From Rhodocyclaceae bacterium (GTDB lineage Bacteria > Pseudomonadota > Gammaproteobacteria > Burkholderiales > Rhodocyclaceae): a DNA stretch of 64,000 bases. Shown piece by piece: positions 14,066-35,957 of the stretch; within the stretch, counting starts at the first letter, position 1; each line of letters opens with the position of its first letter. The notes below the pieces were generated by a model. That model saw nothing but the letters and a program-made list of their open reading frames with translations, searched no databases and was not told the origin of the DNA. The stretch spans positions 1 to 64,000 of the forward strand of contig JAEUNM010000001.1 of NCBI GenBank assembly GCA_016791105.1. The letters run 5' to 3'. A program made the translations under genes and the position numbers.

Positions 14066-14174
14066 CCACGGAAATGGCGCCGATAGACGATTTACATAGA
14101 CGCGCGGCGCGACAAACAAATGTGCGCGCCGCGGTGGTTGGCGCGTCAAAGCGCAGGATTGCGCGTCGCGAGCA

Positions 14175-18603: not shown

Positions 18604-21183
18604 TCAGGCGCGTTTTCGTTTTAATTTGGGGGCCAGAGAGTCGGTACTGGTGGACACGCTGGTCCACACCGGATTGGGACGGAACTGGGCCACCCAGGCC
18701 GGGATGCGATCGGCCGGCATGGGGCGCGCAATGCCAAACCCTTGCGCATACTGGCAGCCTAGGCGCAGCAGGGCGGCGCCGTGCAATTCGGTTTCCACCC
18801 CTTCCGCGATCACCTGGCGGTTGAAGGCGCGCGCCAGACCGATCACGCCGGCAACGATGGCATAGTCATCGGGGTCGCGCAGCATGTCGCGCACGAAAGA
18901 CTGGTCGATTTTCAATGCCCTTGCCGGCAGGCGGCGGAAATAGGTGAGCGATGAATAGCCGGTGCCGAAATCGTCCAGCGCGAAAGAAATTCCGCGCGAT
19001 TCGCACTGCGCGATGATGGACGAGGCGTGGTCCATGTCCTGCAGTGAGGCGGATTCCAGAATTTCGATTTCCAGCAGGCCCGGCTCGATGCCGCCCGCTT
19101 CGGCCAGCGCGGCATCCAGTTGGGTAATGAATTCCCGTTCCTGCAGCGTGCCGCCACACATGTTCACGCTGATCGCGAGTTTGATGCCTAGCGCGCGCCA
19201 CTCGTGCGACTGGTGCAATGCCTGACGCAATACCCAATGGTCTACGCGCGCCGCCAGCGGGTGGTTTTCGATCAGGGGCAAAAATTCTATCGGCGGCAGG
19301 ATGCCGCGCGTCGGATGTTGCCAGCGTATGAGCGCTTCCGTGCCGATCACGCGGCCGCTCAGCATGTCCACCTTGGGCATGTAGTACAGCACGAATTCGT
19401 GCAGGGCCAGGGCCTGTTCGATGCGCTGCAGGGCTTGCCGGTGCGCCTGTGCGCGGCGGTCGCTTTCCAGGTCGAACAGGTGGTAGCGGTTGCGGCCGGC
19501 CTGTTTGGCGATATACATGGCCTGGTCGGCATGGCGCAACAAACTATCGGCATCGCCGCCGTCGAGCGGGAATAGCGTGACGCCTATGCTGGCGGAAACG
19601 CCGAAATCGCGTTCGCACACGGTATAGGGCTGGTCCAGGTTTTTCAGCAGGCGGTCCACGGCGAGGTCGCAATCTTCCACGCTGGCCAGGCCGCCCAGCA
19701 ATACGGCAAATTCGTCGCCGCCCAGGCGCGCCACGGTATCGCCGGCGCGTGCGCCGTTGCTCAAGCGCTCCGCCACTTCGACCAGCAGCGCGTCGCCGGC
19801 GGCGTGTCCGAGCAAATCGTTCACGTCCTTGAACCCGTCCAGATCGAGGTAGCACACGGCGAGCAATGTTTGTTCGCGTTGCGCGCGCGCCATCGCCATC
19901 TGCAGGCGGTCGGCCAGCAAGCTGCGGTTGGGCAGTTGGGTCAGCGTATCGTAATAGGCCATGCGCTCCAGCCGGCGCTGGTTTTCCTTGATGGCCGTAA
20001 TGTCGGTGAACACGCCCACATAGTGCGTGAGCGTGCCTTCGGCGTCGCGCACGGCGGTGATGGTGAGATGTTCCGCATATACCTCGCCGGATTTGCGGCG
20101 GTTCCACAGTTCGCCGCGCCAGCAGCCGTTTTCTTTCAGCGAGGTCCATAGCGCGCGATAAAAAGTCGCGTCCTGGTGGCCGGACTGCAGGAAATTCGGA
20201 TTTTTGCCTATCGCTTCTTCGCGGCTGTAGCCGGTGACGCGCAGGAATGTTTCGTTCACGTCCAGGATGCGCGGGCGCGGATCGCAAATCACGATGCCTT
20301 CCTGCGCGTGGTCGAATACGCTGGCCGCGAGCCTTAGCCGTTCAGCCACGGCGCGTCGCTCCGTCACGTCGTACAGGGTGCCGGCGGTGCCGATGAGTTC
20401 GCCCTGCGGATCCAGCGTGAGGCGCGCAAACACTTCTACCCAGCGATGGCCGCCGTCCTTGTGTAGATAGCGGATTTCGTGCCGGCAGTAATCTTTTTCG
20501 CGCGCGATGAGGGGCTGGAACAAAGCCTGGTTGCGCGCGCGGTCATCCGGGTGCACATAATCCAGGAAAGATTTGCCCAAAGCTTCCTCGACCGTAAATC
20601 CGGTAATTTCCTCCCAGGCGCGATTCAGGAACAGCCAGCGGCCTGCCGCATCGGTCTGAAAAATGGCTTCCTTGACGTTATCGACCACCAGGCGATAGCG
20701 TGCTTCGCTTTCGCTCAGGCAGTGTTCGGCGTGCTTGCGGCCGGTAATGTCGGTAATGGTGCCTATGCAGCGTGTTGCCCGGCCTTGCGCATCAAAACTG
20801 ACGGCGCGACCGCGCCCCAGCACCCAGGCCCAGCTCGCTTCCGAGCGCAACAGGCGAAATTCGCATTCGAAACAGGGGTGATCCGGCCTGCCGCCGCTGC
20901 GCAATGTTTGCTGCAGCCGCGCAACGTCGTCGGCATGGACGAAGTGCAGCCAATCTGCAAACGGCAGCGTCAGCGGTTCCAGCCCGCGTGCGTCCACGAG
21001 TGGGGCATTGGCGGCAATTTCCATGCTCTCGCTGGCAAGATCAAGTACCCAGGCGCAGTCCGGCAGAGACTGCAGCGCGCGGCGCACGGTTGCCGCGACA
21101 CCGGCGGAAGTGGGCGGCGCCTGCGCGGCCTGCCCACAGGCAATCGCCGCCAGGGCGGCGTCGAAGTCGGGCGGGGCGTTCAT
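18604..21183 (-). CDS. PAS-PAS-PAS-GGDEF-EAL cyclic-di-GMP signalling protein
   Basis: The 859-aa product carries three PAS domains (about 35-160, 165-290 and 295-420), a GGDEF domain with intact RLGGDEF (about 485) and an EAL domain with intact GTEALIRW (about 613), DDFGTGYSSL and IAEGVET. Both synthase and phosphodiesterase sites look usable, so the net effect on c-di-GMP cannot be told from sequence. No signal peptide or membrane helix is visible, so it is cytoplasmic. The frame stays open upstream into the TIR gene, but family-like sequence begins at the ATG at 21183. It lies 101 bp behind the TIR gene on the same strand and may be the last gene of that transcript. Confidence 0.92.
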   Translation of the reverse strand: MNAPPDFDAALAAIACGQAAQAPPTSAGVAATVRRALQSLPDCAWVLDLASESMEIAANAPLVDARGLEPLTLPFADWLHFVHADDVARLQQTLRSGGRPDHPCFECEFRLLRSEASWAWVLGRGRAVSFDAQGRATRCIGTITDITGRKHAEHCLSESEARYRLVVDNVKEAIFQTDAAGRWLFLNRAWEEITGFTVEEALGKSFLDYVHPDDRARNQALFQPLIAREKDYCRHEIRYLHKDGGHRWVEVFARLTLDPQGELIGTAGTLYDVTERRAVAERLRLAASVFDHAQEGIVICDPRPRILDVNETFLRVTGYSREEAIGKNPNFLQSGHQDATFYRALWTSLKENGCWRGELWNRRKSGEVYAEHLTITAVRDAEGTLTHYVGVFTDITAIKENQRRLERMAYYDTLTQLPNRSLLADRLQMAMARAQREQTLLAVCYLDLDGFKDVNDLLGHAAGDALLVEVAERLSNGARAGDTVARLGGDEFAVLLGGLASVEDCDLAVDRLLKNLDQPYTVCERDFGVSASIGVTLFPLDGGDADSLLRHADQAMYIAKQAGRNRYHLFDLESDRRAQAHRQALQRIEQALALHEFVLYYMPKVDMLSGRVIGTEALIRWQHPTRGILPPIEFLPLIENHPLAARVDHWVLRQALHQSHEWRALGIKLAISVNMCGGTLQEREFITQLDAALAEAGGIEPGLLEIEILESASLQDMDHASSIIAQCESRGISFALDDFGTGYSSLTYFRRLPARALKIDQSFVRDMLRDPDDYAIVAGVIGLARAFNRQVIAEGVETELHGAALLRLGCQYAQGFGIARPMPADRIPAWVAQFRPNPVWTSVSTSTDSLAPKLKRKRA

Positions 21184-21284: not shown

Positions 21285-22808
21285 TCAGCCTTCCGTGCCC
21301 GCTTCCGCAGCCTTGGGATCGAGCATGCCAAGCAGACGCTGGATGTCTGCGTCGAAGTGCGCATCCGATAAATCCAGGGCGTTGAAGCGCACCAGACTGG
21401 CAATGTCTGCCGGCAAGTCGGCACCGGAAGGCATGGCGGTGCCGTCTACCAATATCGGCACCACGGCTTTCTGCTGCTGCAGCGCCTGGGCGATTTCGCG
21501 CCGCACGAAATCGTGTTCGGCGTCGATGCGGCGCGCACCGGTGGCGTCGCGCTCCAGCCAGCGCGGGCCGATCAAAATGAGGGCGGCGTCGGATTCGGCC
21601 ATGCGTTGCTCGATCACGCGCGCAAATTCGGCGCCGGGCGCAATCCGGTAAATGTCGCGAAAAACCTTGTCTGGGCCGAATGCCCGCGCCAGGTGGTCGT
21701 ACAGACGGCCCGCCACGGCAGCCGTATCCTGGCGCCGGTAGCTGATGAACACGCGCACGCCACCCGGCTTGGCGGTGCCACGCAGGGGGCGCATCGCGAA
21801 AAATGCACACAGCAGGCCGGCAAGCGCCGGCAGCAGCAGCACGGCGGCCTGCGCCGGGCTCTGCCTGAGACGCGCGAAGGGCCCGACGCGCGCCGTGCCG
21901 TCCGCCGCCCACACCCAGGCCCAGCCTTGTGCGTTCAGGTCGAACCCGTCCGCCCGCAATGCCAGCCCGCCCACAGTCAGAGCCTGGGCGACCGGCCCCT
22001 GTTCGCAGCGCCCGGCAGCGAGCGAGGCGGACGACCACAGTATGCCGCCGGGCCGCGCGGCGCAGGCGAACAGGCGCCAGTCATCCGACCCGGCGCGGCG
22101 TATGCCGAAGGCGCGCAGGCTCAAGCGGTCTGCGGCGCCGGCCGCGCCCAGGCGCAGGTAGCGGTAACGCCCGGCCTCATCCCAGGGCGGCGGCGCGGCA
22201 CTTACCCTGAGGCGCAGGCTGCCGCCGTCCGTAACATCGACACTGACCGGCAGCGCACCGGGCAAGCGGAACACATGGCCTGATTCGATCAGGCGCATGT
22301 TTGCCTGCGCCAATTGCGGTGTGTGCGCCTGCACGGCTGCCATGCTGACGGCAAGTTCCGCGCCGCTCACGCGCAGTTCCAGTTCCGGATTTTTGTTCTC
22401 GCTGCCGGCCTCCAGCGTCAATACCAGTTCCGCGGCGGGCGCCGGATCCGTGAGCGCGATACTTATACGGCTGGCCGCCTCGCCGCTGGCATCGTTGATC
22501 CATTGGATGGGGCCGGTGTCGCCGCTGGGCCTGGCACCCGCGCTGCGCATGAGCGCCAGGGTGTCGAAGCCAAGCCGGGCGCGTTCAAAGCGCAGGTCCG
22601 TGGCCTGCCCGGCCGGGCTGGGCAGATTCATGAGCCCTTCGTTGGCAGCAGGCGCGCGCAGCACCAGTTCTTCGCCCGCGGCAATATTCAGATCGTGTCG
22701 TGTCCACTGCTGCGCGGGCGGCAGGCGCCAGAACCAGATATCCAGCCCCAGACATAGCAGCGCGGCGGCCAGAAAGCCGGCGCGCGGGAGACGGGCGGCG
22801 ACGGCCAT
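21285..22808 (-). CDS. Membrane-anchored TIR-domain protein with extracytoplasmic region
   Basis: In this 507-aa protein an N-terminal helix (about 10-27) and a second helix (about 320-341, LLLPALAGLLCAFFAMRPL) enclose a periplasmic region of roughly 290 residues rich in beta strand. The cytoplasmic C-terminus (351-495) is a TIR domain: RVFISYRRQD, DKVFRDIYRI, then HDFVRREIAQAL. Glu438 in RREI sits where the catalytic Glu of NAD-cleaving TIR proteins such as SARM1 stands (KDWVHKEI), so NADase activity is predicted. The gene is 10 bp downstream of a secreted-protein gene and ends a cytochrome operon. It looks like a receptor that turns an outside signal into NAD cleavage or TIR signalling. Confidence 0.85.
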   Translation of the reverse strand: MAVAARLPRAGFLAAALLCLGLDIWFWRLPPAQQWTRHDLNIAAGEELVLRAPAANEGLMNLPSPAGQATDLRFERARLGFDTLALMRSAGARPSGDTGPIQWINDASGEAASRISIALTDPAPAAELVLTLEAGSENKNPELELRVSGAELAVSMAAVQAHTPQLAQANMRLIESGHVFRLPGALPVSVDVTDGGSLRLRVSAAPPPWDEAGRYRYLRLGAAGAADRLSLRAFGIRRAGSDDWRLFACAARPGGILWSSASLAAGRCEQGPVAQALTVGGLALRADGFDLNAQGWAWVWAADGTARVGPFARLRQSPAQAAVLLLPALAGLLCAFFAMRPLRGTAKPGGVRVFISYRRQDTAAVAGRLYDHLARAFGPDKVFRDIYRIAPGAEFARVIEQRMAESDAALILIGPRWLERDATGARRIDAEHDFVRREIAQALQQQKAVVPILVDGTAMPSGADLPADIASLVRFNALDLSDAHFDADIQRLLGMLDPKAAEAGTEG

Positions 22809-22818
22809 GCCGCAGCGC

Positions 22819-23709
22819 TCAGGGCGCCACGACTACGGGCCGCTCCGACCAGGCGACTACCCAGTCGCCCTGGGCGGTGGTCCAGGCCCTTACCTGCAGC
22901 AAATGCGGGCCGAAAGAATCGCGCCCGGCGCCGTCCTTGCCGTCCCAGGCCAGCGCGGGATTGCGGCCTATCCAGGCATCGCGCGTGACCGCCTGTTCGA
23001 CCTTGATGTGGCGCACCTGCGCAAGTTCGAACTGGTCGTTCGTCTGGGTTACGCGCAAAAATTCCACGGCTGCGCGCTGGAAGTCGGATTTCGAATGAAA
23101 GCCATAAAAGGCTGGGCGACGTTCGCGCAGGCTGATCTGCGTCGGCGCGACGCTGACATCGTCGATCGCCACCGATCCCACCGCAAGCGGGCCGGCGCCG
23201 ATTCCGCGCAATTCGAACGCGCGTTCAGCGCCCTCCGCCGCCTGCGCGCGCAGGCTTATGTTGCCGGGAATCGGCTGTTCGCCAAAGCGCTCGGGCAGGC
23301 GTAATACCACGATGTGCGGTTTGCCCGGCGGCGGCGCATTGAACGTCAGCGCAGTGCGGTAGGGTGCCACGCCCTGAGCGGTCGCGATCAGCTCCAACCG
23401 CGTGCCGGCGGCGGCGGTCCAGGCCAATACCAGCGGCCAGCCGCCGCGCACGAAGCCCCGGATGTCCAGCGCATGCATGCGGAATGCCGGCGGGGTGCGT
23501 GGGCCGCTGGTGGTCAGTTCCGGGTCCAGGCCCTGCTGTCCGAACAGTTTGCTCAGGTCGAATTCGAAGCCCAGCCCGAATCCGCCACGGCCGCCATCCA
23601 CCGGTTGGCGTATGCCCTCATCCCCGGGCACGGATGAAGCCTGCGCGCAGGTGACAAGAACGCTACAAACTGCGCTTGCCATCAGCTTTATCCAGTGCGA
23701 TGGCGGCAT
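22819..23709 (-). CDS. Secreted hypothetical protein of the cytochrome-TIR operon
   Basis: The 296-aa product has a signal peptide (LMASAVCSVLVTCAQASS) and no transmembrane helix after it. The ATG follows AGGAGGACAT. The mature part is predicted to be largely beta-stranded, with segments such as GWPLVLAWTAAAGTRLELIA and HLLQVRAWTTAQGDWVVAWS that resemble fibronectin-like or carbohydrate-binding folds. I do not recognise a family. It starts 14 bp after a diheme cytochrome gene and ends 10 bp before the TIR gene, so it may be a periplasmic partner or ligand-binding protein for one of them. Confidence 0.75.
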   Translation of the reverse strand: MPPSHWIKLMASAVCSVLVTCAQASSVPGDEGIRQPVDGGRGGFGLGFEFDLSKLFGQQGLDPELTTSGPRTPPAFRMHALDIRGFVRGGWPLVLAWTAAAGTRLELIATAQGVAPYRTALTFNAPPPGKPHIVVLRLPERFGEQPIPGNISLRAQAAEGAERAFELRGIGAGPLAVGSVAIDDVSVAPTQISLRERRPAFYGFHSKSDFQRAAVEFLRVTQTNDQFELAQVRHIKVEQAVTRDAWIGRNPALAWDGKDGAGRDSFGPHLLQVRAWTTAQGDWVVAWSERPVVVAP

Positions 23710-23723
23710 ATGTCCTCCTGCTG

Positions 23724-25202
23724 TCAGAGCGTCTTCAGGTACTCCACCAGTGCATCCTTGTCGGCGCCCGGCAGACGCGTGCCGAATTCGTGCCCTTTAT
23801 TGCTATTGGTACGCTGGAAAGTGTCGTAGGGAAAGCCGTATTTCTGCGCCTGCGCGCTGGTCGATTCGAAGCCGACGCGGGCCTGGTCATACACGTCATA
23901 GCCGCGATAAAACTGTTTCGGACGCTTGTCGGCCGGCTCCAGCAAATCGCGCAAGGTGGGTACCGAGCCATTGTGCAAATACGGGCCGCGCAGCCAGATG
24001 CCATCCAGGAAGGCGGCGATATAGCCGTCCAGCGGCTCGTCCTCCACCAGGCCCAGGCGCTCCAGCCCCATGTTGCGCACCACCCGGTTGGCTTCTTTGG
24101 CGGCTTTGTGGTTCCAGGTGCCTATGCGCTCCGCGTCAGTGCCGATTTCCTTGAGTGGAATGCGGGTGCCGGTGCGCGCGCTGGCGTGGCAGCGCGCACA
24201 TTCCGCCTCGAACACCTGCTTGCCGCGCGCGGCGCGTTTTTCTTCGATTGCGAAGGGATAACGCGGCGCCTGCGTGCTGCCCAGATAGTCGAGCAGCCAT
24301 TTCACTTCATCGACAAATTCGGCATTGCTTTTGGGCGGTGCGCCAAGCAGGCCCAGGGCCGAATCCATGATGACCGAAAAGGCGTCATGGCTGTCGCCGG
24401 CGAAATTCATGCGCATGCCTTTTTCGTGGTGGTACTTCTTGATGTTCCAGATCGACGGCATGTCGGTCGGACCCACGCTGTCATCCATTTTCCACTTGAT
24501 CATGAAATACTTGGTCAAGTTCATCGAATCGTCGCGGCCCGGCCCCCATTCCGGAAAATCCTTGCGGAACACCCAGGCGAATTGTTCCTTGCGCTCGGCC
24601 AGGCGCTGTTTGGTAATCGGAATGATGAAAAAGCGATAGGCCAGTCTATCGATCAAGTCCAGTTTGGTGACCTGATTGATTTCACCCATGAGGGTGTCGG
24701 CATTGAAGCGCGGGTCCTGCGCCACCTCGACCAGAAAGCGGAAAAACGCTTCCAGCTTCAGACGCTGGGTCGGGCCGGTGGGCACGAAAGTGGGGTTTTC
24801 GTCGTGCTTGCTGCGGTAGCTGGAGGTATGGCATACGGCGCAGTTATTGGCGACGCGCGGAAAACCGACCACTTTTTTGGTGAAGCCTATCGGCAATTCC
24901 TGGCCTTGTTCCCAGGCGACGCCGAACGCGGCATAGCCGCCGGGGCCGGGCAGCTTGTCCGGAAAAATGCGCGGCAGCACGTAAAAAATCCAGTACGGAA
25001 TGCCGGCATCGCGCTCGGCGCCGATGGAACCATACTTGAAGCGCATTTCCGGCGTGGCGGTGACCCAATCCGGCTGTGCTTCTTCGCGGAAAAAGCGGTA
25101 CCACGCCACGTAAGCGCCCAGGACCGCCAGCACCAGCAGCACGATGAGCACGATGCGGATGGTGCCGAAGCGCCAGCCGGAGGAATTGGTATTGTTTGCC
25201 AT
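23724..25202 (-). CDS. Membrane-anchored diheme c-type cytochrome (RoxA/BCCP-like), 492 aa
   Basis: An uncleaved N-terminal helix (about 15-37) anchors the protein to the periplasmic side. Two c-heme motifs are present, CAVCH at 121-125 and CARCH at 335-339. The C-terminal part has RGPYLHNGSVPTLRDLLEPA and YRGYDVYD, typical of a branch of the diheme peroxidase/MauG/RoxA superfamily. Members catalyse peroxide reduction or oxygenations at a high-spin heme; which applies here is unknown. It is a paralogue of the next upstream gene (shared YGS.G, LPGPG and HNGSVP motifs). Spacers of 14 bp on both sides place it inside the operon. Confidence 0.85.
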   Translation of the reverse strand: MANNTNSSGWRFGTIRIVLIVLLVLAVLGAYVAWYRFFREEAQPDWVTATPEMRFKYGSIGAERDAGIPYWIFYVLPRIFPDKLPGPGGYAAFGVAWEQGQELPIGFTKKVVGFPRVANNCAVCHTSSYRSKHDENPTFVPTGPTQRLKLEAFFRFLVEVAQDPRFNADTLMGEINQVTKLDLIDRLAYRFFIIPITKQRLAERKEQFAWVFRKDFPEWGPGRDDSMNLTKYFMIKWKMDDSVGPTDMPSIWNIKKYHHEKGMRMNFAGDSHDAFSVIMDSALGLLGAPPKSNAEFVDEVKWLLDYLGSTQAPRYPFAIEEKRAARGKQVFEAECARCHASARTGTRIPLKEIGTDAERIGTWNHKAAKEANRVVRNMGLERLGLVEDEPLDGYIAAFLDGIWLRGPYLHNGSVPTLRDLLEPADKRPKQFYRGYDVYDQARVGFESTSAQAQKYGFPYDTFQRTNSNKGHEFGTRLPGADKDALVEYLKTL

Positions 25203-25216
25203 GATGTGACCCCGCT

Positions 25217-26755
25217 TCAGAATTTCTTGAGGTATTCGACCAAGGCCGTTTTATCCGCGTCGGACAAATCGGTGCCGTAGGCCTTGCCCTCGTGGCCGCG
25301 GTTGGAATTGCCGCTCAGCGAGGTGTCGTAGAGGAAAAATTTGCGGCCTTTTTCGTCCGCCACGTTGCTCACGAAGCCGAGGTTTTTCTGGTCGAACACG
25401 TCGTAGCCGCGATAAAACCTGGATGGCCGTTTGCGTGCGGGTTCGAGCAGATCGCGCAGGCTGGGCACCGATCCGTTGTGCAGATAGGGGGCGCGCAGCC
25501 AGATGCCGTCCAGCGGCATGTTGGCGTAGCCGTAAGTTTTGCGGAAGTGCTGGAAGCGCCACGGATAGCCCGCATAGAGCGTGGATAGATTGCCCACCAG
25601 GTCGTAGGTGAATGAATCCAGCCGGGCGCGGTCGGTGCCTATGGCCTCGATGGGGGTCACGAAGCCCACCTTGTCGCCGGAAAAATCCGATCCGCTGGCG
25701 CCGTGACAGGCCGAACAATATTCGGCGTAAATCGGCGCGCCGCGGGCGGCAAGTTCTTCATTGACCGGGAAGGGGTAGGCCGGCGCCCTCAGTTCGGTAA
25801 TCCAGGCTTCGACGCGCCCGATGGCGGCCAAATCTATGGTCGGCGGCAGTGTGCCGGTGCCGAAGGCGGCGTTCTTGTTGCGCTCTTCCATGTGGTCCTG
25901 GTTGCCGTCCCAGTGCAATTGCATCTGCTGGCCGTCGGCGCGCTTGCGGCGCGGACCCTGGTTCCAGATGGACGGAAAATCGGCCGTCCCGACCCATTCT
26001 TCCTTGGGTAATTTGTCCATCGGAAAATTGAACAGAATTTTCGAGGCGCTGAAGGTATCGACACGGCCCGGGCCCCAGTCCGGCTGGCGATCGCGGAATT
26101 TGAAGCGGTCGCGCAGCATGAGCAGGCGCTCGCGCATGAGCGCAATGGCGACCGGATACACGATGTAGTGGTCCAGCATGCTGAGCTTGCCGGCCTGGGC
26201 TTCAATTTCCGGCACGATGAATGCGGTGCTGAATTTCGGATCGGCCGCGCAATTGGTGTAGAAACTTTCGAATCCGCCCAGATTGAATCCACTCGCCGGC
26301 GAGCCCAGATACATTTTCGCCGCGCTGTCCGGCCGCTCGCGCACGGTATTGGAGTGACACACGGCGCAATTGAAAAACACCCGGTCCAGGCCCAGGTTGC
26401 GGCGCCTGGAAACGCCCACCGGCAAGCCGCCCTGCGCTTCCGATTTGCCTTCCTCGTACAGCATGCCTAGCGAGGCGTAGCCGGGGCCGGGCAGGTATTG
26501 CGGGCATATTTGGGGCAGCACGCGCCAAATCCAGTACGGAAAGCCGGACGCGCGTTCGCCGCCGGTCGAACCATATTTGAAATGGTCTTCGATCTTGTCG
26601 TAAGTCACCGGCACGTCGGCCAGGAAGCGGCTGGCCAGGGCCAGCGCCACCACCACCGGCACGATCACGCTGAGGCCAAACAATATCCAGAAACGCCGCA
26701 TCCAGCGCGCGCGCGCCGAATAGGCGCGCTGCAGATCGGAATTGGTTTCACTCAT
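25217..26755 (-). CDS. Membrane-anchored diheme c-type cytochrome (RoxA/BCCP-like), 512 aa
   Basis: The ATG at 26755 follows AAGGAGAACGGCC and overlaps the preceding stop by four bases (ATGA), so translation is coupled. A membrane anchor lies at about 20-43, and heme motifs at 130-134 (CAVCH) and 347-351 (CSACH). The shared motifs YGSTGGERASGFPYWIWRVL and APYLHNGSVPSLRDLLEPA tie it to the 492-aa protein downstream, presumably by tandem duplication. The enzyme should face the periplasm, and its electron donor could be another cytochrome of the operon. The reading frame extends upstream to 27034 without family-like sequence. Confidence 0.85.
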   Translation of the reverse strand: MSETNSDLQRAYSARARWMRRFWILFGLSVIVPVVVALALASRFLADVPVTYDKIEDHFKYGSTGGERASGFPYWIWRVLPQICPQYLPGPGYASLGMLYEEGKSEAQGGLPVGVSRRRNLGLDRVFFNCAVCHSNTVRERPDSAAKMYLGSPASGFNLGGFESFYTNCAADPKFSTAFIVPEIEAQAGKLSMLDHYIVYPVAIALMRERLLMLRDRFKFRDRQPDWGPGRVDTFSASKILFNFPMDKLPKEEWVGTADFPSIWNQGPRRKRADGQQMQLHWDGNQDHMEERNKNAAFGTGTLPPTIDLAAIGRVEAWITELRAPAYPFPVNEELAARGAPIYAEYCSACHGASGSDFSGDKVGFVTPIEAIGTDRARLDSFTYDLVGNLSTLYAGYPWRFQHFRKTYGYANMPLDGIWLRAPYLHNGSVPSLRDLLEPARKRPSRFYRGYDVFDQKNLGFVSNVADEKGRKFFLYDTSLSGNSNRGHEGKAYGTDLSDADKTALVEYLKKF

Positions 26756-28893
26756 GGCCGTTCTCCTTGTTTGTACTGCTCCTGCGCGGTGCAGGGCGGC
26801 AGGGTTTCGTATTGCGTGCTGCGCCAGGTGGCCGGGTCGGGCGCTTTGCCCGTCGCGGCGGCTGCCCATTTGGCGGCTTGCGCCAGCATTGCCGTCAAGG
26901 CTTGGCCACTGGCCCAGTCGGATGCCGATATATCCGCAGCCGCCAGCGCCAGTTCCGGCGGCATGGGTGTTTTGGCGCGCTCCCGCGCCGGCAGCCGCGC
27001 CATCGCCAAGCGGTAGTGGATGCGCGGCCCGCACTGCCGCAGCATGGCCTCTACCCGTGCCGCGCCGCCATGCAGAAAGTTGGGTGGCGCGGGTTGGTTT
27101 GTCTGGTGGCAGTTGCCGCAGTAAAGATAGAACAAGCCCGGTCCCGCTGCTGCGGGTGCCGCAGGCGGGGCGCGGACCACTGCCGCAGCCGGCGCCGATG
27201 GGGCGGCAGGCGGCGGGCGGGTTCCATCCAGGCGCGCGAGCAAATGTGCGATCAGCGCGCCGCCTTCGTAAATGCCTGCTTCGAACGGCCCCTGCGGTGC
27301 CGCCGCCAGTTCGGCCAGCGCGCGCTCGGCCGGCTCGAATTCCGGCCGCACCACGAATTGGGCGCTGGCCGGGGCCGGCGCACCGGCCGGCCAGTTTATT
27401 TCCAGTGCCGCGATGCGGCTACCGTCGGGCAGGCGCATCTCTTCGCCGGCCCGCAGCGGCGTGCCGTGCCAAATCCGGCCGCTGGCGCGCTGCGTGACTT
27501 CCACGGCCGGCAGATCGGCGTCACCCAGCGCGAACGATCCCAAGCTGAGGTCGCGCAGTTTACCCGTAGTCGCGGAAATGTCGATACGCGCCTTGAAAGA
27601 GGCGCCGGCCGCGGCTTCGCATTGCAGGTCGATCAAATTGCCCTCCGCCTTGCCGCGGCAGGCTGCGGCATAGGTGCGCGACGCACTGGCCGCGTCGGGC
27701 AGTGCCCGCAGCCGGCCTTGCAAGGCGGCGATGTCGCGCGCGGCCAGCATGTCTGCCAATACCGGCAGCACGCGCGCCGCCAGCGCCGTGCCGGCGGCCG
27801 GCCATGCTTCCCGCGCCGGGCGTGGCAGCAGGGGGTCGAGCGCGGCCGGCACGCCCGCAAGTATCTGGTCCGGGGGAAGCGCGGCGCTGTAGCCGGGCGC
27901 CAGCGGGTCGCGGTCGGGCAGGTCGGAATCGGGGATCAGCAGCCCGCCCGAGCGGGCGGCATAGGCATCGAATTCGGGCAGCACGGCGTGTTGCCAGCCG
28001 GCGCCGTCGGCGTGGCCGCGCCCGCCGCTCAGGCGGTAGCGCAGCGCGGCGCCGAACAGGGCGGCGCGGCAGCGCGGCGTGCGGCAAGCTTCGCGCCAAA
28101 GTTTTTGCGCCGCGGCGTACAGATTGGCGCGGCGGGCGGCGTCCTGGATGGCATTCGGAATATCCACGCCGGCCGCGGCCGGCAGCCCGTCGGCGTTGCC
28201 GCCGGCGGCCGCTATGCGCGCCGCGATGCGCGGATTGGCATCGGTTTCGTCCCATTGCGGGCGCGCAAAGATGGGGCCCTGGTTCTGGTGGCAGGCCACG
28301 CAGATCGCCCGCCGCGCCGGGCGGACGCGCGCCTGGGCGGCGGCGGCGTAGTTTTCGACCAATTGAAATTCGAAGCGCCCGGCGCGCGCGTTATAGCTCA
28401 GCACTTCGAGCAGGTCGCTCTGCGCCTGGTAGCCGATATACAGACGGTCGCGCGCGGCGTAGTCAGCCTTGGCGGATTCACCCGTTACCGCCAGCACGAT
28501 GCGCGGAGCGTGGAAATAGTTGGGCGCGGCGGCTTCGCGCTGCAGCGAGCGGCCGAGCGGTATGCGCACGATCTTGATGCAGCCGGCCGGACCCGTGCCG
28601 CAGCCCAGACGGCGCGCCAAATCTTCCACCAGCGCGCTGAACGGGTAGGGCAAGGACAGCTCCCCGCCGGCCGGCGCGGGGTATAGCGTGTCGAACAGGG
28701 ATAGGCCCACCGGCGCCAGTTCGCTGCCCGGAACCAGTGGTGAAACCGCCCATTGTGCGGCGTGGGCGCTGCCGGCTGCCGCCAGCAGCAGGGATAGCGC
28801 GGCGCGCGCGCGGCGCCCGCGCAAGCCACGCTCAGGCAGGCGCACGCGCGCGCTGCTGGGTGCCGGGCCAGCAAGGCTTGACCGTTTCGCCAT
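26752..28893 (-). CDS. Periplasmic diheme c-type cytochrome, 713 aa
   Basis: A cleavable-looking signal (AALSLLLAAAGSAHAAQ, near residue 45) is followed by a long mature protein with CVACH at 198-202, linked to the segment QNQGPIFARPQWDETDAN, and CGNCH at 592-596. The wide spacing between hemes and the lack of the HNGSVP motif make it different from its two downstream neighbours. It may be a distant member of the same superfamily or an electron-transfer partner. The ATG at 28893 overlaps the upstream gene by 62 bp; GTG at 28845 would reduce the overlap to 14 bp and leave a better-shaped signal peptide, so the start is uncertain. Confidence 0.75.
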   Translation of the reverse strand: MAKRSSLAGPAPSSARVRLPERGLRGRRARAALSLLLAAAGSAHAAQWAVSPLVPGSELAPVGLSLFDTLYPAPAGGELSLPYPFSALVEDLARRLGCGTGPAGCIKIVRIPLGRSLQREAAAPNYFHAPRIVLAVTGESAKADYAARDRLYIGYQAQSDLLEVLSYNARAGRFEFQLVENYAAAAQARVRPARRAICVACHQNQGPIFARPQWDETDANPRIAARIAAAGGNADGLPAAAGVDIPNAIQDAARRANLYAAAQKLWREACRTPRCRAALFGAALRYRLSGGRGHADGAGWQHAVLPEFDAYAARSGGLLIPDSDLPDRDPLAPGYSAALPPDQILAGVPAALDPLLPRPAREAWPAAGTALAARVLPVLADMLAARDIAALQGRLRALPDAASASRTYAAACRGKAEGNLIDLQCEAAAGASFKARIDISATTGKLRDLSLGSFALGDADLPAVEVTQRASGRIWHGTPLRAGEEMRLPDGSRIAALEINWPAGAPAPASAQFVVRPEFEPAERALAELAAAPQGPFEAGIYEGGALIAHLLARLDGTRPPPAAPSAPAAAVVRAPPAAPAAAGPGLFYLYCGNCHQTNQPAPPNFLHGGAARVEAMLRQCGPRIHYRLAMARLPARERAKTPMPPELALAAADISASDWASGQALTAMLAQAAKWAAAATGKAPDPATWRSTQYETLPPCTAQEQYKQGERP

Positions 28894-29767
28894 TTTTGTC
28901 GGTGATCGGCGGCACCTGACCGGTCTTGCGGAAGCCGTCGCCGTCGCGCTCGGCAATTTCGGCGTTGTAGAGCGTGAAATTGAGCAGGAATACGCGGTCC
29001 AGGTAAGCCCGTCCCAGGTAAAAGCCGGGCCGCACCATGCGGATTTCGTCGCGCACCTTGAAGCCGCGCCGGCTCGCCAGGTAATCCGGGCGCTCGCGAT
29101 AGCCGGGCAGATCGTCGCTGAAGTAATAGTCGATGATGACCGATTCACGGCGCGAATCGAGCAGGCTTTGGCCGCAATACAGCTTGGCCGGAAACATCAG
29201 CCAGGCATGTTTGCCGCCGGCGTCGAGCTGCGGCAGCGTGGCCGGGTCGCCGTCTATGAGCGGTTTGAGCAGCGACAAGTCGCTGATGCGGTTGCGCAGC
29301 ACGCCTTCGTCGCGATAGAACACCTTGCCCTGCCACAGCGTGGCGCCTATCAGTTCCAGCTTTTGCGTCTTGAGCTGAACCGCCAGACCGGGCAGGCCGC
29401 CGACAATTTCCGCCAGGCGCTTTTTGCCGCTCGTGCCGCGCGGAAAAAACAGCCCGCCGTCGAATACTCCGTCCGGTATCGCTCCCGGCGTGAGGCGGGC
29501 GTAAATCTGGTCCACCTGTTCCTGCGTGTAGTGGGCGATGTTTTTCGGCGTCAGTTGCGACAATTCGGCCGGCGTGAGCGGATAGCGGTATTCGACTTCG
29601 GCCAGATCGGGTTTGGCCGAATATTCCGCACCCGCTTCGATAAATTTGAGGTCGGGCGGCGGGTGCAGCTTGGAATCTATCCAGTCGCAGCCGGGTAAGA
29701 GTGCCAGTAGCGCCGCGCAGGCGGCTGCCATGCTCAGTTTGCCGGGCGCAATTCGGTTGGTGTTCAT
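28832..29767 (-). CDS. Lipoprotein of the cytochrome operon
   Basis: The 311-aa product has a lipoprotein signal peptide with lipobox LLPGC (Cys about 27) and no CxxCH motif. Features include YRYPLTPAELSQLTPKNIAHY, GLFFPRGTSGKKRLAE and RVFLLNFTLYN near the end. I do not recognise a domain. Its position between two secreted cytochromes with a 2-bp gap suggests an outer-membrane or inner-membrane anchored subunit that holds the cytochromes together. The frame is open upstream to 30157, but that part lies inside the preceding gene. Confidence 0.8.
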   Translation of the reverse strand: MNTNRIAPGKLSMAAACAALLALLPGCDWIDSKLHPPPDLKFIEAGAEYSAKPDLAEVEYRYPLTPAELSQLTPKNIAHYTQEQVDQIYARLTPGAIPDGVFDGGLFFPRGTSGKKRLAEIVGGLPGLAVQLKTQKLELIGATLWQGKVFYRDEGVLRNRISDLSLLKPLIDGDPATLPQLDAGGKHAWLMFPAKLYCGQSLLDSRRESVIIDYYFSDDLPGYRERPDYLASRRGFKVRDEIRMVRPGFYLGRAYLDRVFLLNFTLYNAEIAERDGDGFRKTGQVPPITDKNGETVKPCWPGTQQRARAPA

Positions 29768-29769
29768 GG

Positions 29770-32310
29770 CTACAGGGTGGCCAGGAAGGCGATGAGGGCG
29801 TTCTTGTCGGCTTCCGGCAAACTTTCGCCGAAACGGTGGCCGTCGTTTTCGACCTCGGCGAGGCAGGAACTGTACATGCGCAGCAATTCGGGCTGTTTTT
29901 TCGCGGCGTCCACCAGTACCGACGGATCGGCCAGCACCGCATCGGTCAGCCCGGCAAGTACTTCCGTGGCGCGCTTGGCTTCGTCCATGCCCAGGCGCGG
30001 CGCGAGCCGGGTGGTGACGCTCATGGGGCGCAATTTTGCTTCGATCAAATCCTGCATGAACTGTTTGTGCTGGAAATTGCCCAGGGCGCCGGCATTGGTG
30101 CCGGCCGGAATGACCAGCGTAAAGCCGAGCACACGCTTTTCTTCCGCGCCGTCCCACAGGCGCGGCCCCACGTCTATGCGTATCGGCTCATTGAATTTGG
30201 TGATTTTCGGCACGCGCGTTTTGGGGTTCAGCAATTCGCGCATCGATTCCACGTATAGCTTGTAACGCCCTTCCACGCTGGGGTCGTAGGGCCAGCAGGC
30301 CGGCTGGTTCTGCGCCGGCAGCAACTGGCCGTCTGCATCGACGTAGCGATCGCGCCGGAAATCGTTTTTCGCGTCGGCAGGCTTTCCGCACAGTTCGGGG
30401 CCGAGCGCGTTGTTGTGCATGAAGGGCGCGTGCGCCCACAAGGACAGCAGCGAAATGTTGCGGTAATAGCCGCGGCCGCCGTCGGCCGGTTCTTTGAGAT
30501 TGGCGTCGGGCGGGCGCGCGCGCAGGCTTTCCGAGCCGAATTCCTGCCAGACGTGGCCGGCCATGTGGTTGGAGTGGAGCGCCCGGCAGCGGAAGGTGCC
30601 CACTTCGGATACCGGCGTGGCGACGTCGTTGCCGAGAAAATCGGCGCGCAGGCCGGGCGCGGCCTCTTCGCGGAAACTGCGGTTGGCGAATGGTCCGCCG
30701 GTGGCTTCCGGAATGCTGGAATGGCAGCGTGCGCAATTTTCGGCGAACAGCAGGCGGCCGCGCTCCACCGCGCCCGGCCCGAATTCCTTCTCGAGATCAG
30801 CCACCAGGTTTTCATAGCCGTAACGCGCTTTCGGGTCGGCCTGCTGCAGGCGGCGGGCGCGTGCCTGATATAGATCGGTGGCGTAATTGTCGCCCGACAG
30901 CAGAAAGTCCTGCACATTGCCGATGCGATCCTCGATGGCGCGGAAGTTCGCGCAGTCGCGCCGGCACTGGCCGATATCCACCGGCGTCTGGCCGTAATTG
31001 CGCGCCTGCGGATCGATCTGGCGCAGGTCGGTGAGGTGGTTGGCCCAGCACTGCGCGGCACAGGAACCGATGTTGATATACACGCGCTGCAAGGCCTCGG
31101 CAAAACCTATGCTGTCCTCGCCGCCTTTCAGAATGTGGTGAATTTTTTCGCCCGTCATGGCGCTTTTTTTCCAGCACTTGCCGTCCCTGCCGGGCTCGCA
31201 CCAGCAGGTTTTTTCATCTTCGCCGGCCGGGCAGGCGGCCTGACGGCGCCACTTGGTCACGTCCTCGTCGGTAAATAGCGGGCGCTGCGCCAGATTGACC
31301 AGCGCATTGATGGTGCCGGGGTTATTCACCTGGTCGGTCGGTACCGCCGACGTATCCGTGGTGCCGGGCCGCGCGTGCGCGAACACCTGCCATTCGAGGC
31401 TATTGGTGGGCATGCCGGAGGCCAGAATTTCCGACATGCGCAAATACTGGTTGCCGACGCCCAACTTGATGTTGTCCCACTGCGGGTGTGCCGTGTCGGC
31501 CGGCGGGTTGAGCGGATCGAAGCCGATGTGGCAGGCGCCGCAGGACATGCCGATCAGGAAGGGCGGTTCCACGCTGCCGTCACGCAGGCGGCTGATGCGG
31601 TAATCCGCGCTGTCGGCCGGATTGTCCGACAAGGGCTTGCGATAGCCTTCCCAACTGGCCGGGCTGCCGTTCAGCTGTTTCCAGCGCGCCGCGGAAAAGC
31701 GCGGATTGGGAAATTTGCGCAGCCCCAGCGCGCCGGTGGAGGTGCCGAAAGCGAGGTCGCAGGCGGCCTGGCGTTGCGCCACGGCGCCGGCCGCCGTTTC
31801 GCCGCTGGCCGCAACCTCCTTGAAATCGCAGGCCGGGTCGCGGTAGCCGTCCTTGCCGACGAATTTGAGCAATTCGTCGTCGCCCGGGCACCACTGGAAG
31901 CCATAGGTTTCGTCCAGGTTTTGCGCCGGGCAGCCGGCGTCGCCGGGGGTGCAGCAACTGGGGTCGTTGATGATGCCCCAGGCCTGGAAGCGGTCGCCCG
32001 CAGCCTGGGCATTGAGCACGCGGTACCAGTCCGGCGTGACGCCTATGCGTTGCGGAAAGATATAGGCGTGGAAATAGGCGTTGCCGGCGGTCGCCTTGTA
32101 CCAGATTTCGCGCCCGGCCTGGGCCGATGCGTCGAGCGCGCCGGCGGCGTCGTAAAAGGCGGCTTCGGTGCGCGGCGCGGCAGCCGCGGCCGGCGGCTGC
32201 GCGGCCGGGACTGCTGCGGCTGCCGGGGCGGCGGGTTCGCCCTGCATGACGGCGTAGGCGGCCATGCCTCCCGCGAATGTGAGCGCCAGCAGTGTGAGGG
32301 CGCGCTTCAT
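29770..32310 (-). CDS. Large secreted diheme c-type cytochrome, 846 aa, first gene of operon
   Basis: The ATG follows GGAG at a proper distance. A signal peptide or anchor (TLLALTFAGGMAAYAVM) is followed by an Ala/Pro-rich linker. The heme motifs are CGACH at 257-261 and CARCH at 526-530, the second within RGRLLFAENCARCHSS. The segment GYYRNISLLSLWAHAPFMHN resembles the HNGSVP region of the diheme enzymes downstream and of RoxA-type rubber oxygenases. Extra cysteines (SCCTPGDAGC, CWCEPGRDGKC) suggest structural disulfides. It leads an operon of about 11 kb on the minus strand and is divergent from the secretion operon across a 283-bp gap. Confidence 0.85.
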   Translation of the reverse strand: MKRALTLLALTFAGGMAAYAVMQGEPAAPAAAAVPAAQPPAAAAAPRTEAAFYDAAGALDASAQAGREIWYKATAGNAYFHAYIFPQRIGVTPDWYRVLNAQAAGDRFQAWGIINDPSCCTPGDAGCPAQNLDETYGFQWCPGDDELLKFVGKDGYRDPACDFKEVAASGETAAGAVAQRQAACDLAFGTSTGALGLRKFPNPRFSAARWKQLNGSPASWEGYRKPLSDNPADSADYRISRLRDGSVEPPFLIGMSCGACHIGFDPLNPPADTAHPQWDNIKLGVGNQYLRMSEILASGMPTNSLEWQVFAHARPGTTDTSAVPTDQVNNPGTINALVNLAQRPLFTDEDVTKWRRQAACPAGEDEKTCWCEPGRDGKCWKKSAMTGEKIHHILKGGEDSIGFAEALQRVYINIGSCAAQCWANHLTDLRQIDPQARNYGQTPVDIGQCRRDCANFRAIEDRIGNVQDFLLSGDNYATDLYQARARRLQQADPKARYGYENLVADLEKEFGPGAVERGRLLFAENCARCHSSIPEATGGPFANRSFREEAAPGLRADFLGNDVATPVSEVGTFRCRALHSNHMAGHVWQEFGSESLRARPPDANLKEPADGGRGYYRNISLLSLWAHAPFMHNNALGPELCGKPADAKNDFRRDRYVDADGQLLPAQNQPACWPYDPSVEGRYKLYVESMRELLNPKTRVPKITKFNEPIRIDVGPRLWDGAEEKRVLGFTLVIPAGTNAGALGNFQHKQFMQDLIEAKLRPMSVTTRLAPRLGMDEAKRATEVLAGLTDAVLADPSVLVDAAKKQPELLRMYSSCLAEVENDGHRFGESLPEADKNALIAFLATL

Positions 32311-32593: not shown

Positions 32594-33028
32594 ATGCCCA
32601 TTAATGCGACTTTGGCGCCGCGCCCTGCGGTGCGCGGTTTCACTTTGCTCGAACTGCTGGTGGTGATGGTCATCATCGGACTGCTGGCGGGTTATGTCGG
32701 GCCGCGGTTTTTCGCGCAGATCGGCAAATCCGAAGTAAAAGCCGCGCGCGCCCAGCTCGACGGGCTGGAAAAGGCGCTCGATACCTACCGCCTGGATACC
32801 GGACACTATCCCAGCAGCGAACAGGGCTTGAAAGCGCTGAATGAGCGGCCGGCCAACGAACCCAAGTGGGAAGGCCCCTACCTCAAAAAAGCCGTGCCGC
32901 CCGACCCCTGGGGCCGGCCCTATGTGTATCGTTCGCCCGGCGAGCACGGCGAATACGATCTTGCTTCATACGGCAAGGATGGGCAGCCCGGCGGCGAAGG
33001 TGAGGCCGCCGACATCACCAGTTGGTAG
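32594..33028 (+). CDS. gspG: Type II secretion major pseudopilin GspG
   Basis: The 144-aa protein has the prepilin cleavage site RG/FTLLELLVVMVIIGLLAG and the characteristic GspG C-terminus: GHYPSSEQGLKAL, then KKAVPPDPWGRPYVY and the calcium-site region YDLASYGKDGQPGGEG. It should be processed by a prepilin peptidase encoded elsewhere and form the pseudopilus. It opens a plus-strand operon of ten genes. The ribosome binding site is weak. Confidence 0.95.
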   Translation: MPINATLAPRPAVRGFTLLELLVVMVIIGLLAGYVGPRFFAQIGKSEVKAARAQLDGLEKALDTYRLDTGHYPSSEQGLKALNERPANEPKWEGPYLKKAVPPDPWGRPYVYRSPGEHGEYDLASYGKDGQPGGEGEAADITSW

Positions 33029-33114
33029 GCCAGGCAAATTCCGGATCAGCCTTTCATGCGGCACTTTTTGCTCAGGTCGCGGTGCCTGCACACAACTGCG
33101 CGACAAATCCGGCC

Positions 33115-34302
33115 ATGCTGTTTCAAATAAAAGGCATGCAGGCCGGCGGCCAGGTGGCGGAAATTGCCATCGAGGCGCCGGATGAAGCCGCCGCCCGCGC
33201 CCAGGCCGCCGCGGGCGGGCTGGTGGTGCTGTCGGCGCGGCGCGGGCGCGCGCTGGATCTGGCCGGCTCGCGGCGCGCGCGCTTTCCGCTGCTGCTGTTC
33301 GGCGAGCAATTGCTGGCGCTACTGGCGGCCGGCATACCACTCATCGAAGCCATCGAAACCCTGGCCGAAAAAGAACAGCGCGACGCCATGCGCGCGGTGC
33401 TCATGGCGGTGCGCCAGTCCTTGCGCAACGGTTTGCCGCTGTCGGCCGCCGCAGCGGCGCAGCCGGCGGCATTTCCGCCGCTGTTCGTGGCCATGCTGCG
33501 GGCGGCGGAACGCACCAGCGACATCGAACAGGCGATACGCCGTTACGTCGATTACCGCAAACAGATGGAAGCCCTGCGCGCGCGCCTGGTGGCGGCGGCC
33601 ACTTACCCCATGTTGCTCCTGATCGTCGGCAGCCTGGTGGTGCTATTCCTGCTGGCCTATGTGGTGCCGCGCTTTTCGCAGGTATATACCGACCTGGCGC
33701 GCGATCTGCCGTTTGCTTCGCGCTGGCTGCTGGCCTGGGGCGAATTCGTGTCGCAGCATTTCGTCTGGGTGGCCGGCGCTTTTGCGCTCGCCGTGGCCGG
33801 ACTATGGACTGCGCTACAACGCCCGCAACTGCGGCTCGCCCTGAGCGCCGCGGCCTGGGCCACGCCCTGGCTGGGCGAACAGTTGCGCATGTTGCAGCTC
33901 GCCCGCCTCTACCGCACCGTGGGCATGCTGCTGCGCGGCGGTCTGCCGCTGGTGCAGGCGCTCGAAATGGTGGACGATCTGCTCGCCGCCGGCCTGCGTC
34001 TGCGGCTTTTGAGCGCCGTTACCGCCGTGCGCGAAGGCGGCCGCCTGTCCGACGCGCTGGCGCGCTATCAGCTTGGCACGCCGGTCGCGCTGCGCATGCT
34101 GCGGGTAGGCGAGCGCGCCGGCAATCTGGGCGAAATGCTGGAACGCGCGGCCGATTTTCACGACGAGGAAATCGCCCGCAACGTCGATTGGCTTACCCGG
34201 CTGGTCGGCCCGCTGCTCATGCTGGCCATGGGGGTGGCGATCGGGTTGGTGGTGGTATTGATGTATCTGCCCATATTCCAGCTCGCGGAAAGTCTGCAAT
34301 GA
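33115..34302 (+). CDS. gspF: Type II secretion inner-membrane platform protein GspF
   Basis: The ATG at 33115 gives 395 aa in the usual GspF/PilC layout: two repeated T2SSF domains (about 65-190 and 265-390) and three hydrophobic segments (LLLIVGSLVVLFLLAYVV, VAGAFALAVAGLW, LLMLAMGVAIGLVVVLMYL). The motif FGEQLLALLAAGIPLIEAIE is typical. It anchors the assembly ATPase to the inner membrane. The stop overlaps the gspE start (ATGA). Confidence 0.95.
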   Translation: MLFQIKGMQAGGQVAEIAIEAPDEAAARAQAAAGGLVVLSARRGRALDLAGSRRARFPLLLFGEQLLALLAAGIPLIEAIETLAEKEQRDAMRAVLMAVRQSLRNGLPLSAAAAAQPAAFPPLFVAMLRAAERTSDIEQAIRRYVDYRKQMEALRARLVAAATYPMLLLIVGSLVVLFLLAYVVPRFSQVYTDLARDLPFASRWLLAWGEFVSQHFVWVAGAFALAVAGLWTALQRPQLRLALSAAAWATPWLGEQLRMLQLARLYRTVGMLLRGGLPLVQALEMVDDLLAAGLRLRLLSAVTAVREGGRLSDALARYQLGTPVALRMLRVGERAGNLGEMLERAADFHDEEIARNVDWLTRLVGPLLMLAMGVAIGLVVVLMYLPIFQLAESLQ

Positions 34303-35957
34303 ACGCCCCCGCCGCGCTGCCTTTCTCGACCGAACAGATCGCCGCTGCGCGCGCCGGTCGCGCCCGCCACTGGCTGGCCGCGCTGGCCGACATCGAGCCG
34401 GACGCCGAACTGCGCCTGGCGCGCCTGGCCGCCGCGGCGCGCATGCAGCCGGTGGGACGCGATGCGCTGCGCGAACTGAAGCCGGATTTCGACTGCGTGA
34501 GCCTGTCCGACGCCATCACGCGGCACGTTCTGGTGGCTTGGGCGGGCGAGGCGCGCGTGGCGGTGGTGGCGGATCCATTTGATGCCGATCTGGCGGCCTG
34601 GCTGGACGTGCATTTGCGCGTTGCGGCGGAACGCTGGCTGGCCGACCCGGATGAACTGGCGGCCTGCCTGCACAAGCACGAAGAAGGCCAGCGCGCGCTG
34701 GCCAGCCTGGTGGGTGAGGCGGTGGGCGGGCTGGCTGGCGCGGCGGCAGAAGAAATCAGTTTCGAACGCATCAGCCAGGACGCCAGCCCGGTCGTGCGTC
34801 TGGTCAATTCCACGCTGTACGACGCGCTGCGCCAGGGCGCCAGCGACATCCATCTGGAATCGGTGCCGGGCGGCATGCACATCAAGTATCGGCTGGACGG
34901 CGTGCTGGTGCGCATGGGCGCGGTGCAGGGCGCGGACATGGCGGAACAGGTGGTATCGCGCGTGAAAGTGCTGTCGGAACTGGATATCGCCGAGCGTCGC
35001 GTGCCGCAGGATGGGCGTTTCCGCGTCAAGGCGGGCGGGCGCGACATCGACCTGCGCGTATCTGTCATGCCCAGCATACATGGCGAAGATGCCGTGCTGC
35101 GGGTGCTCGACAAAGAGCACCTGACGCGCGAAATGGCCGGCCTCACGCTGGAAACCCTGGGTTTCGACGCCCTGTCGCAGAGCGCGCTGCGGCGCCTGGC
35201 GGCCGAACCGCACGGCATGCTGCTGGTGACCGGCCCCACCGGCAGCGGCAAAACCACCACGCTGTACGCCACGCTGCTCGAAATCAATAATGGCGAAGAC
35301 AAAATCATCACCATCGAAGACCCGGTCGAATACCAGTTGCCCGGCGTGTTGCAAATTCCGGTCAATGAAAAAAAGGGACTGACTTTCGCGCGCGGCCTGC
35401 GCTCCATCCTGCGCCACGATCCGGACAAAATCATGGTGGGCGAAATTCGCGATGCGGATACCGCGGAAATTGCCGTACAGGCCGCGCTGACCGGCCACCT
35501 GGTGTTCACCACCGTGCATGCCAACAACGTGTTCGACGTGATCGGCCGCTTTACGCACATGCGCGTCGACCCCTACAGTTTCGTCGCGGCGCTCAATGGC
35601 GTGGTGGCGCAGCGCCTGATACGGCTCAATTGCCCGGCCTGCAGCGTGGAGGTCGAAGCGCCGGCCGAACTGGTCGCGCAGTTGAGTGCTGCGGCCGGCG
35701 GCGCGCCGAGTTGTCGCGAAGGGCAGGGCTGCGGGCATTGCCGCGGCACCGGCTTGCGTGGGCGCCGCGCCATCGCCGAAGTGTTGAATCTGGATGACGA
35801 ATTGCGCGAACTGATCGCCACCCGCGCCCCCGTGCGCAGCCTCAAACAAGCGGCGCAGGCGCGCGGTTTCGTGCCGCTGCGCGATGCCGGCCTGGCGGCG
35901 GCGGCGCGCGGCGATACCAGCATCAAGGAATTATTGCGTGTCACTTCCTTGGGCTGA
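34299..35957 (+). CDS. gspE: Type II secretion assembly ATPase GspE
   Basis: The 552-aa hexameric ATPase has the GspE N-terminal domain, ASDIHLE, Walker A GPTGSGKTTT at about 312, an Asp box (ITIEDPVEYQLPG), Walker B (KIMVGEIRDADTAEIA) and the His box (GHLVFTTVHANN). A CxxC pair (CPAC and CGHC) near 447-480 forms the zinc site. It powers pseudopilus growth. The start overlaps the gspF stop, and the frame upstream of it is a shadow of gspF. Confidence 0.96.
   Translation: MNAPAALPFSTEQIAAARAGRARHWLAALADIEPDAELRLARLAAAARMQPVGRDALRELKPDFDCVSLSDAITRHVLVAWAGEARVAVVADPFDADLAAWLDVHLRVAAERWLADPDELAACLHKHEEGQRALASLVGEAVGGLAGAAAEEISFERISQDASPVVRLVNSTLYDALRQGASDIHLESVPGGMHIKYRLDGVLVRMGAVQGADMAEQVVSRVKVLSELDIAERRVPQDGRFRVKAGGRDIDLRVSVMPSIHGEDAVLRVLDKEHLTREMAGLTLETLGFDALSQSALRRLAAEPHGMLLVTGPTGSGKTTTLYATLLEINNGEDKIITIEDPVEYQLPGVLQIPVNEKKGLTFARGLRSILRHDPDKIMVGEIRDADTAEIAVQAALTGHLVFTTVHANNVFDVIGRFTHMRVDPYSFVAALNGVVAQRLIRLNCPACSVEVEAPAELVAQLSAAAGGAPSCREGQGCGHCRGTGLRGRRAIAEVLNLDDELRELIATRAPVRSLKQAAQARGFVPLRDAGLAAAARGDTSIKELLRVTSLG

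Follow-up and report, generated by a model that had tools for sequence, protein, structure and literature searches.

In a 64,000-nucleotide stretch of DNA from a Rhodocyclaceae bacterium (contig JAEUNM010000001.1; this whole stretch is called the window below) we analysed a run of seven minus-strand genes, reading from 32310 to 21285, that encodes four diheme cytochromes (A, C, D and E), a lipoprotein (B), an exported protein (F) and a protein with a TIR domain. Our main finding is that the constant unit consists of the genes A to E, that the F-TIR pair is an addition to this unit, and that the position directly behind E (referred to as the slot) holds different cassettes in different relatives, including several other types of effector. 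All seven open reading frames (ORFs) were found as they had been described in an earlier sequence-only reading, with neighbours that overlap or are separated by at most 14 bp. The two CxxCH motifs in each of the four cytochromes, the lipobox of B and the signal sequence of F likewise bear out what was said there about these proteins. The genes are:

Gene A, 29770-32310, minus strand: exported diheme c-type cytochrome of 846 amino acids (CxxCH at 257 and 526); first gene of the module.
Gene B, 28832-29767, minus strand: lipoprotein of 311 amino acids with lipobox LPGC; starts 2 bp after A.
Gene C, 26752-28845, minus strand: diheme c-type cytochrome of 697 amino acids with a GTG start (CxxCH at 182 and 576); overlaps B by 14 bp.
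Gene D, 25217-26755, minus strand: diheme cytochrome of 512 amino acids with an N-terminal anchor (CxxCH at 130 and 347); overlaps C by 4 bp.
Gene E, 23724-25202, minus strand: diheme cytochrome of 492 amino acids with an N-terminal anchor (CxxCH at 121 and 335); follows a 14 bp gap; last gene of the module.
Gene F, 22819-23709, minus strand: exported, beta-rich protein of 296 amino acids with a signal sequence; follows a 14 bp gap.
TIR gene, 21285-22808, minus strand: TIR protein of 507 amino acids; follows a 10 bp gap.

Scanning 84,980 species genomes with an alignment of E yielded 80 loci, found mostly in the Betaproteobacteria and also in the Nitrospirota, Myxococcota, Binatota and Gammaproteobacteria. 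The order A-B-C-D-E was present in 55 of the 56 loci with enough upstream DNA. Within a set of 101 genomes (our own and 100 relatives) cytochrome C occurs in 17 and is thus more widely spread than the full-length TIR protein, which was found together with F in the same five genomes (our own and four of the 100 relatives), the two genes being adjacent each time. From the conserved gene order and the wider spread of the cytochrome it follows that A-E is the constant unit and F-TIR the addition. The module usually lacks a TIR gene, and the idea that the seven genes form one obligatory system was therefore rejected. Nevertheless, every genome with an F-TIR pair also has the A-E module, and the pair lies directly behind E in four of the five cases of the genome set, or in five of six when a Thauera locus (L070) is counted; in G035 the pair and the module are on separate contigs, the ends of which prevent a decision on linkage. 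One culturable relative, Cognatazoarcus halotolerans, carries the complete set of A to E plus F and TIR. F was encountered once without a TIR gene nearby, in G231 (apart from our own genome, the sole match in a set of 369 genomes of the class), so that F alone is not strictly tied to TIR. The association between F-TIR and the module exceeds chance. The sequence-only reading had taken the seven genes as one unit, and of this the grouping itself has proven real and is seen in other genera, whereas the A-E genes mostly stand without TIR and F-TIR is exchangeable. It had also regarded separate occurrence of the two parts as evidence against a unit: the cytochromes are indeed often found without TIR, whereas the F-TIR pair was not found without the cytochromes.

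The slot behind E was studied by scanning all 80 loci on both strands with hidden Markov models (HMM) for TIR, C14, patatin, DUF4062 and papain-like proteins as effector classes, with 600 kb covered downstream of E; slot counts refer to 77 loci, and since downstream genes are simple ORF calls, the counts of non-effector genes are approximate. Eleven TIR matches were obtained, eight of which are on the same strand as E and at most 2.6 kb behind it (8/77 loci). The number expected in the slot is 0.08 on the basis of the mean density in the relatives (170 TIR_2 domains in about 394 Mb) or 0.76 on the basis of the TIR-richest genome, giving Poisson P values of 5e-14 to 1e-6. Besides F-TIR, the TIR proteins in the slot have several other Pfam architectures (e.g. 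with CHASE2, with LCCL, with a part resembling DUF3108 or with an OmpA neighbour). Other effectors in the slot were Peptidase_C14 (three), DUF4062 (three, either alone or with NB-ARC and TPR according to Pfam), papain-like proteins (two), patatin (one) and PLD (one). All slot effectors (18/18, i.e. 17 from the HMM scan and the PLD gene, which was found among same-strand genes only) are co-directional with the operon, as compared to 46/74 when the first gene is taken whatever its kind (about 2e-4 on the assumption of independence), and no antisense TIR, C14, patatin, DUF4062 or papain-like match was found within 7 kb behind E. One case that departs from this uniform direction came from another search, outside the 80 loci: in L055 (genome G082) a patatin-like gene, recognised by eye, is convergent with E. 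On the tree of E the presence of TIR changes at least seven times and the cassette type at least 18 times; the former implies that shared descent alone is insufficient to explain the TIR counts.

Effectors are also found elsewhere around the module, for instance upstream of A (a patatin-like gene in L124 and L141 and a WD40-caspase-like gene in L103 and L109, those in L141, L103 and L109 being weak or recognised by eye) and between C and D (an ORF with a caspase domain in G035). In four Zoogloea-like loci (L118, L119, L129 and L131) a gene that by eye looks thiol peroxidase-like follows E on the same strand. In L098 a protein of 1785 amino acids (12984-18341; CHAT, LCAT-like and DUF7379) is encoded beside the caspase-like gene behind the module.

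Pairwise comparison of close relatives showed that the cassettes are swapped precisely right after the stop codon of E. In L070 and L077, whose E proteins are 96% identical, homology extends to the E stop codon and resumes at +2590 and +3510, and between these flanks L070 carries F-TIR and L077 an ABM-like gene (by eye) followed by a DUF4062-NB-ARC-TPR gene; in a third relative (L079) the homologous flank already resumes after about 24 bp. Similarly, L125 and L127 are 93% identical through the end of E and 90% identical again from +58 and +2192, the difference being a 2.1 kb cassette with a TIR gene and an OmpA-domain gene versus nothing. Between 22.8 and 23.8 kb of the window, where a terminator or promoter had been named as an argument against one unit, we found no minus-strand terminator-like site between E and the TIR gene and no promoter-like site.

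The TIR domain of the protein behind F was recognised as Pfam TIR_2 (PF13676; residues 353-493, 57 bits, E 3.5e-15). Among solved structures it matched SARM1, both by sequence (E 6e-9) and, as top hit of the modelled domain, by fold (Z 14.5, root-mean-square deviation (rmsd) 3.0, 137 residues aligned). Glu438 aligns with the Glu in the SARM1 segment KDWVHKEIV, which we take to be the catalytic E642, and is invariant in five TIR orthologues, in agreement with the conserved Glu reported before. By sequence and model the domain thus appears SARM1-like with the catalytic Glu kept, and we infer that it has NADase activity. The predicted layout comprises a helix (9-28), an extracytoplasmic part (about 40-316), a second helix (318-337) and a cytoplasmic TIR domain (350-497). 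The two membrane helices and the periplasmic domain proposed earlier are thus again predicted, although in the hydropathy profile only the second helix exceeds 1.6. The TIR protein is conserved with 31-63% identity in five genomes, which belong to four further genera or species, and has F adjacent; F itself matched no Pfam or NCBIfam family. With 13 TIR_2 domains in 5.1 Mb, our own genome greatly exceeds the mean of the relatives; two of these domains are close together on contig C3 (10265-11003).

Among the cytochromes, D and E score above the curated cut-offs of NF040606, di-heme-cytochrome C peroxidase (179 and 168 bits, respectively; cut-off 150), and of PF21419, the RoxA-like cytochrome family (59.5 and 57.2 bits; cut-off 26.7). 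D matches the RoxA structure 4b2n with E 5e-9, and the profile of E does so with E 5.8e-14, covering the conserved APYLHNGSVP and C-terminal GHxF regions. These matches place both D and E in the RoxA-like diheme family; the two are paralogues of each other. The GHxF region of E is taken as the putative equivalent of the site of the RoxA heme ligand, named His641 (PMC4496055). E also carries W252 and F267 as possible equivalents of Trp302 and Phe317 of RoxA, at the same spacing of 15, although F267 is not invariant. In gene A (mean column identity of 62% in a profile of 15 relatives) the C-terminus is RoxA-like (GHRFGE...LIAFLATL), where the match to 4b2n is weak (E 0.034). For C, in which the CxxCH pairs at 182 and 576 are kept in 14 of 14 aligned sequences, searches of families and the PDB gave no significant match. 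B is strongly conserved among the relatives; it matched no Pfam family, a sequence-based search gave no family and a search of plasmid records led nowhere. Its AlphaFold model (predicted local distance difference test, pLDDT, 76) has Tcur_1030 (4mve) as top fold match (Z 9.8, rmsd 3.1, 138 residues aligned), followed by weak matches to lipocalin/fatty-acid-binding-protein-like folds (Z about 4-5), so the predicted structure of B resembles a calycin-like beta-barrel.

Downstream of the TIR gene follows one more gene on the same strand, which possibly shares the transcription unit with the seven-gene run and the position of which is kept in a second genome of the genus:

PAS-GGDEF-EAL gene, 18604-21150, minus strand: domains according to Pfam; 134 bp downstream of the TIR gene; start chosen in this analysis.

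Below it in window coordinates lies a CheB-CheR-PAS-histidine-kinase fusion (15006-18362, minus strand), and a protein with a HipA-like C-terminal domain is encoded at 5451-6815 (minus strand). Type II secretion-like genes (32594-40469, plus strand) are divergent from the operon and include a secretin according to Pfam and, by eye, a GspG-like pseudopilin and GspF-like and GspE-like ORFs. A polysaccharide-type cluster is found at 45993-60196 (plus strand), with two zinc-dehydrogenase and GFO/IDH/MocA fusion genes, asparagine synthase, a heparinase II/III-like protein and a glycosyltransferase.

With regard to function, we tentatively favour, at a confidence somewhat short of even, a proposal in which an extracytoplasmic oxidation module co-expresses an output protein from the slot and in which F-TIR senses the outcome of the cytochrome reaction and cleaves nicotinamide adenine dinucleotide (NAD+) in response. 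A-E would form the oxidation module, made up of RoxA-like diheme enzymes and the putatively calycin-like lipoprotein, and its substrate would probably be a compound that is both hydrophobic and unsaturated, for instance a lipid or isoprenoid. Oxidation of such a compound seems likeliest because of the chemistry of RoxA, which cleaves polyisoprene, and of PA2077/PA2078, which oxygenate oleate (PMC4496055), the predicted calycin-like fold of B and the recurrence of patatin-like genes near D/E-type cytochromes. On a Rhizobium plasmid, for instance, such cytochromes are found with genes for a GMC oxidoreductase and a patatin-like phospholipase and no annotated TIR. The slot would serve to co-express the output protein with the module. 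As the layout suggests, a cytochrome-linked change (in a product, the redox state or envelope damage) may be sensed by F and by the TIR protein's extracytoplasmic part, upon which the TIR domain across the membrane would cleave NAD+. The outcome would be growth arrest, cell death or a nucleotide signal, and in relatives the slot would be given to other immune-type or signalling effectors. That the cytochromes signal to TIR is what we infer, and the confinement of F-TIR to module-bearing genomes fits such coupling. The sequence-only reading, which had suggested a system that senses or produces an oxidised compound outside the cell and responds by NAD depletion or signalling, is partly supported. 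A more general version, in which the periplasmic diheme module is the sensor or signal generator of a hitherto unrecognised, envelope-guarding class of immune systems with an exchangeable effector (TIR, caspase-like, STAND or lipase), so that bacteria would combine c-type cytochromes with effectors of the death type, we consider unlikely.

Several observations weigh against coupling of the cytochromes to the effectors. The majority of modules have no effector behind E, and the slot also holds ordinary genes (e.g. those encoding a methyltransferase, a response-regulator GGDEF-EAL protein and a thiol peroxidase-like protein). Caspase-like and STAND proteins that lack a predicted membrane helix cannot directly meet exported cytochromes, and one sensing mechanism can therefore not serve all cassettes. 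The extracytoplasmic part of the TIR protein is beta-rich in a model of low confidence (four sequences, pLDDT <50). Moreover, most of the unrelated TIR proteins sampled in these genomes also have a predicted membrane helix (after the TIR domain in about 10), and the helix was therefore rejected as a specific sign of coupling. A literature search, which covered few subscription papers, gave no paper linking diheme cytochromes to TIR or caspase effectors.

The strongest competitor, which we regard as a serious possibility and place just behind the proposal of coupling, is that the end of E is a permissive insertion point behind a conserved, well-expressed operon, where defence and signalling genes that insert co-directionally are kept via read-through and have no biochemical link to the module. 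The great heterogeneity of the cassettes, some of whose proteins have no predicted membrane helix, is in line with this, as are the non-effector and antisense genes at the same point and the other TIR types that occur in these genomes away from the module. It accounts less well for the strong over-representation of effectors and their uniform direction, for the effectors upstream of A and between C and D, and for the F-TIR pair, which was not found in a genome without the module. We think it rather improbable that A-E is a metabolic or stress operon which detoxifies or uses oxidised lipids, with the TIR protein acting as a scaffold or as a mild, NAD+-consuming envelope regulator linked to cyclic di-GMP and not in defence or cell death. 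TIR domains can act as scaffolds, in four loci a GGDEF-EAL gene follows E directly and in this genus one adjoins the cassette, and the Rhizobium plasmid combines the cytochromes with the GMC oxidoreductase and patatin-like genes and no annotated TIR; however, all five orthologues keep the catalytic Glu, and the alternative cassettes (caspase-like, STAND, papain-like and other TIR proteins) are conflict-type effectors. That the genes are neighbours by chance, or that faulty gene calling created the arrangement, is hardly credible, as it is contradicted by the comparative data, i.e. the conservation of the TIR protein next to F across five genomes and the enrichment of TIRs behind E.

The bacterial TIR and caspase-like effector systems known so far mostly sense inside the cell, and a conserved module of exported heme enzymes that acquires such effectors time and again would bring an extracytoplasmic input to bacterial immunity or programmed death. 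RoxA-like diheme enzymes that have no part in rubber degradation are poorly understood, and such a module would provide a testable role for them. Owing to the clean cassette swaps, the question is open to experiment in cultured relatives from Thauera, Aromatoleum and Dechloromonas.

Compared with known systems, D and E share with RoxA/RoxB the RoxA-like domain, the two CxxCH motifs, export and the C-terminal heme-ligand region, yet they score only 50-81 bits against the NCBIfam equivalog models for RoxA/RoxB/RoxC, the cut-offs of which are 900-1000. The relationship to RoxA is common to D/E and to PA2077/PA2078 (FadCcp), fatty-acid diheme peroxidases that are 43% identical to each other (PMC4496055). 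D and E differ from RoxA/RoxB and, as far as the likeness drawn from their description goes, from PA2077/PA2078 by the membrane anchor and by the neighbours A, B and C. The TIR protein shares the fold and the position of the catalytic Glu with SARM1 but has no ARM or SAM domain; in their place it has a pair of predicted membrane helices and an extracytoplasmic part, along with the exported partner F. As in Thoeris, CBASS and other bacterial systems with TIR effectors, a TIR protein is present as candidate NADase effector within an operon, but no ThsA, CD-NTase or SAVED was found among the seven genes. Membership of Thoeris was rejected (besides the lack of a ThsA-like gene in the run, the ThcB4 score is 46.5 bits versus a cut-off of 220), as was that of CBASS or another PADLOC system, the best PADLOC/NCBIfam matches in the seven genes covering the TIR part only. 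More similar are the ternary and STAND conflict systems with exchangeable effectors (PMC7159879), in which a constant core is likewise combined with variable effectors from TIR, caspase, STAND and similar domains; in a text search of that paper cytochrome c appears only as the trigger of the eukaryotic apoptosome. The core described here differs from theirs in being extracytoplasmic and redox-active. The closest kind is a constant core with exchangeable effectors, and what would be new here is that the core is extracytoplasmic and built on heme proteins.

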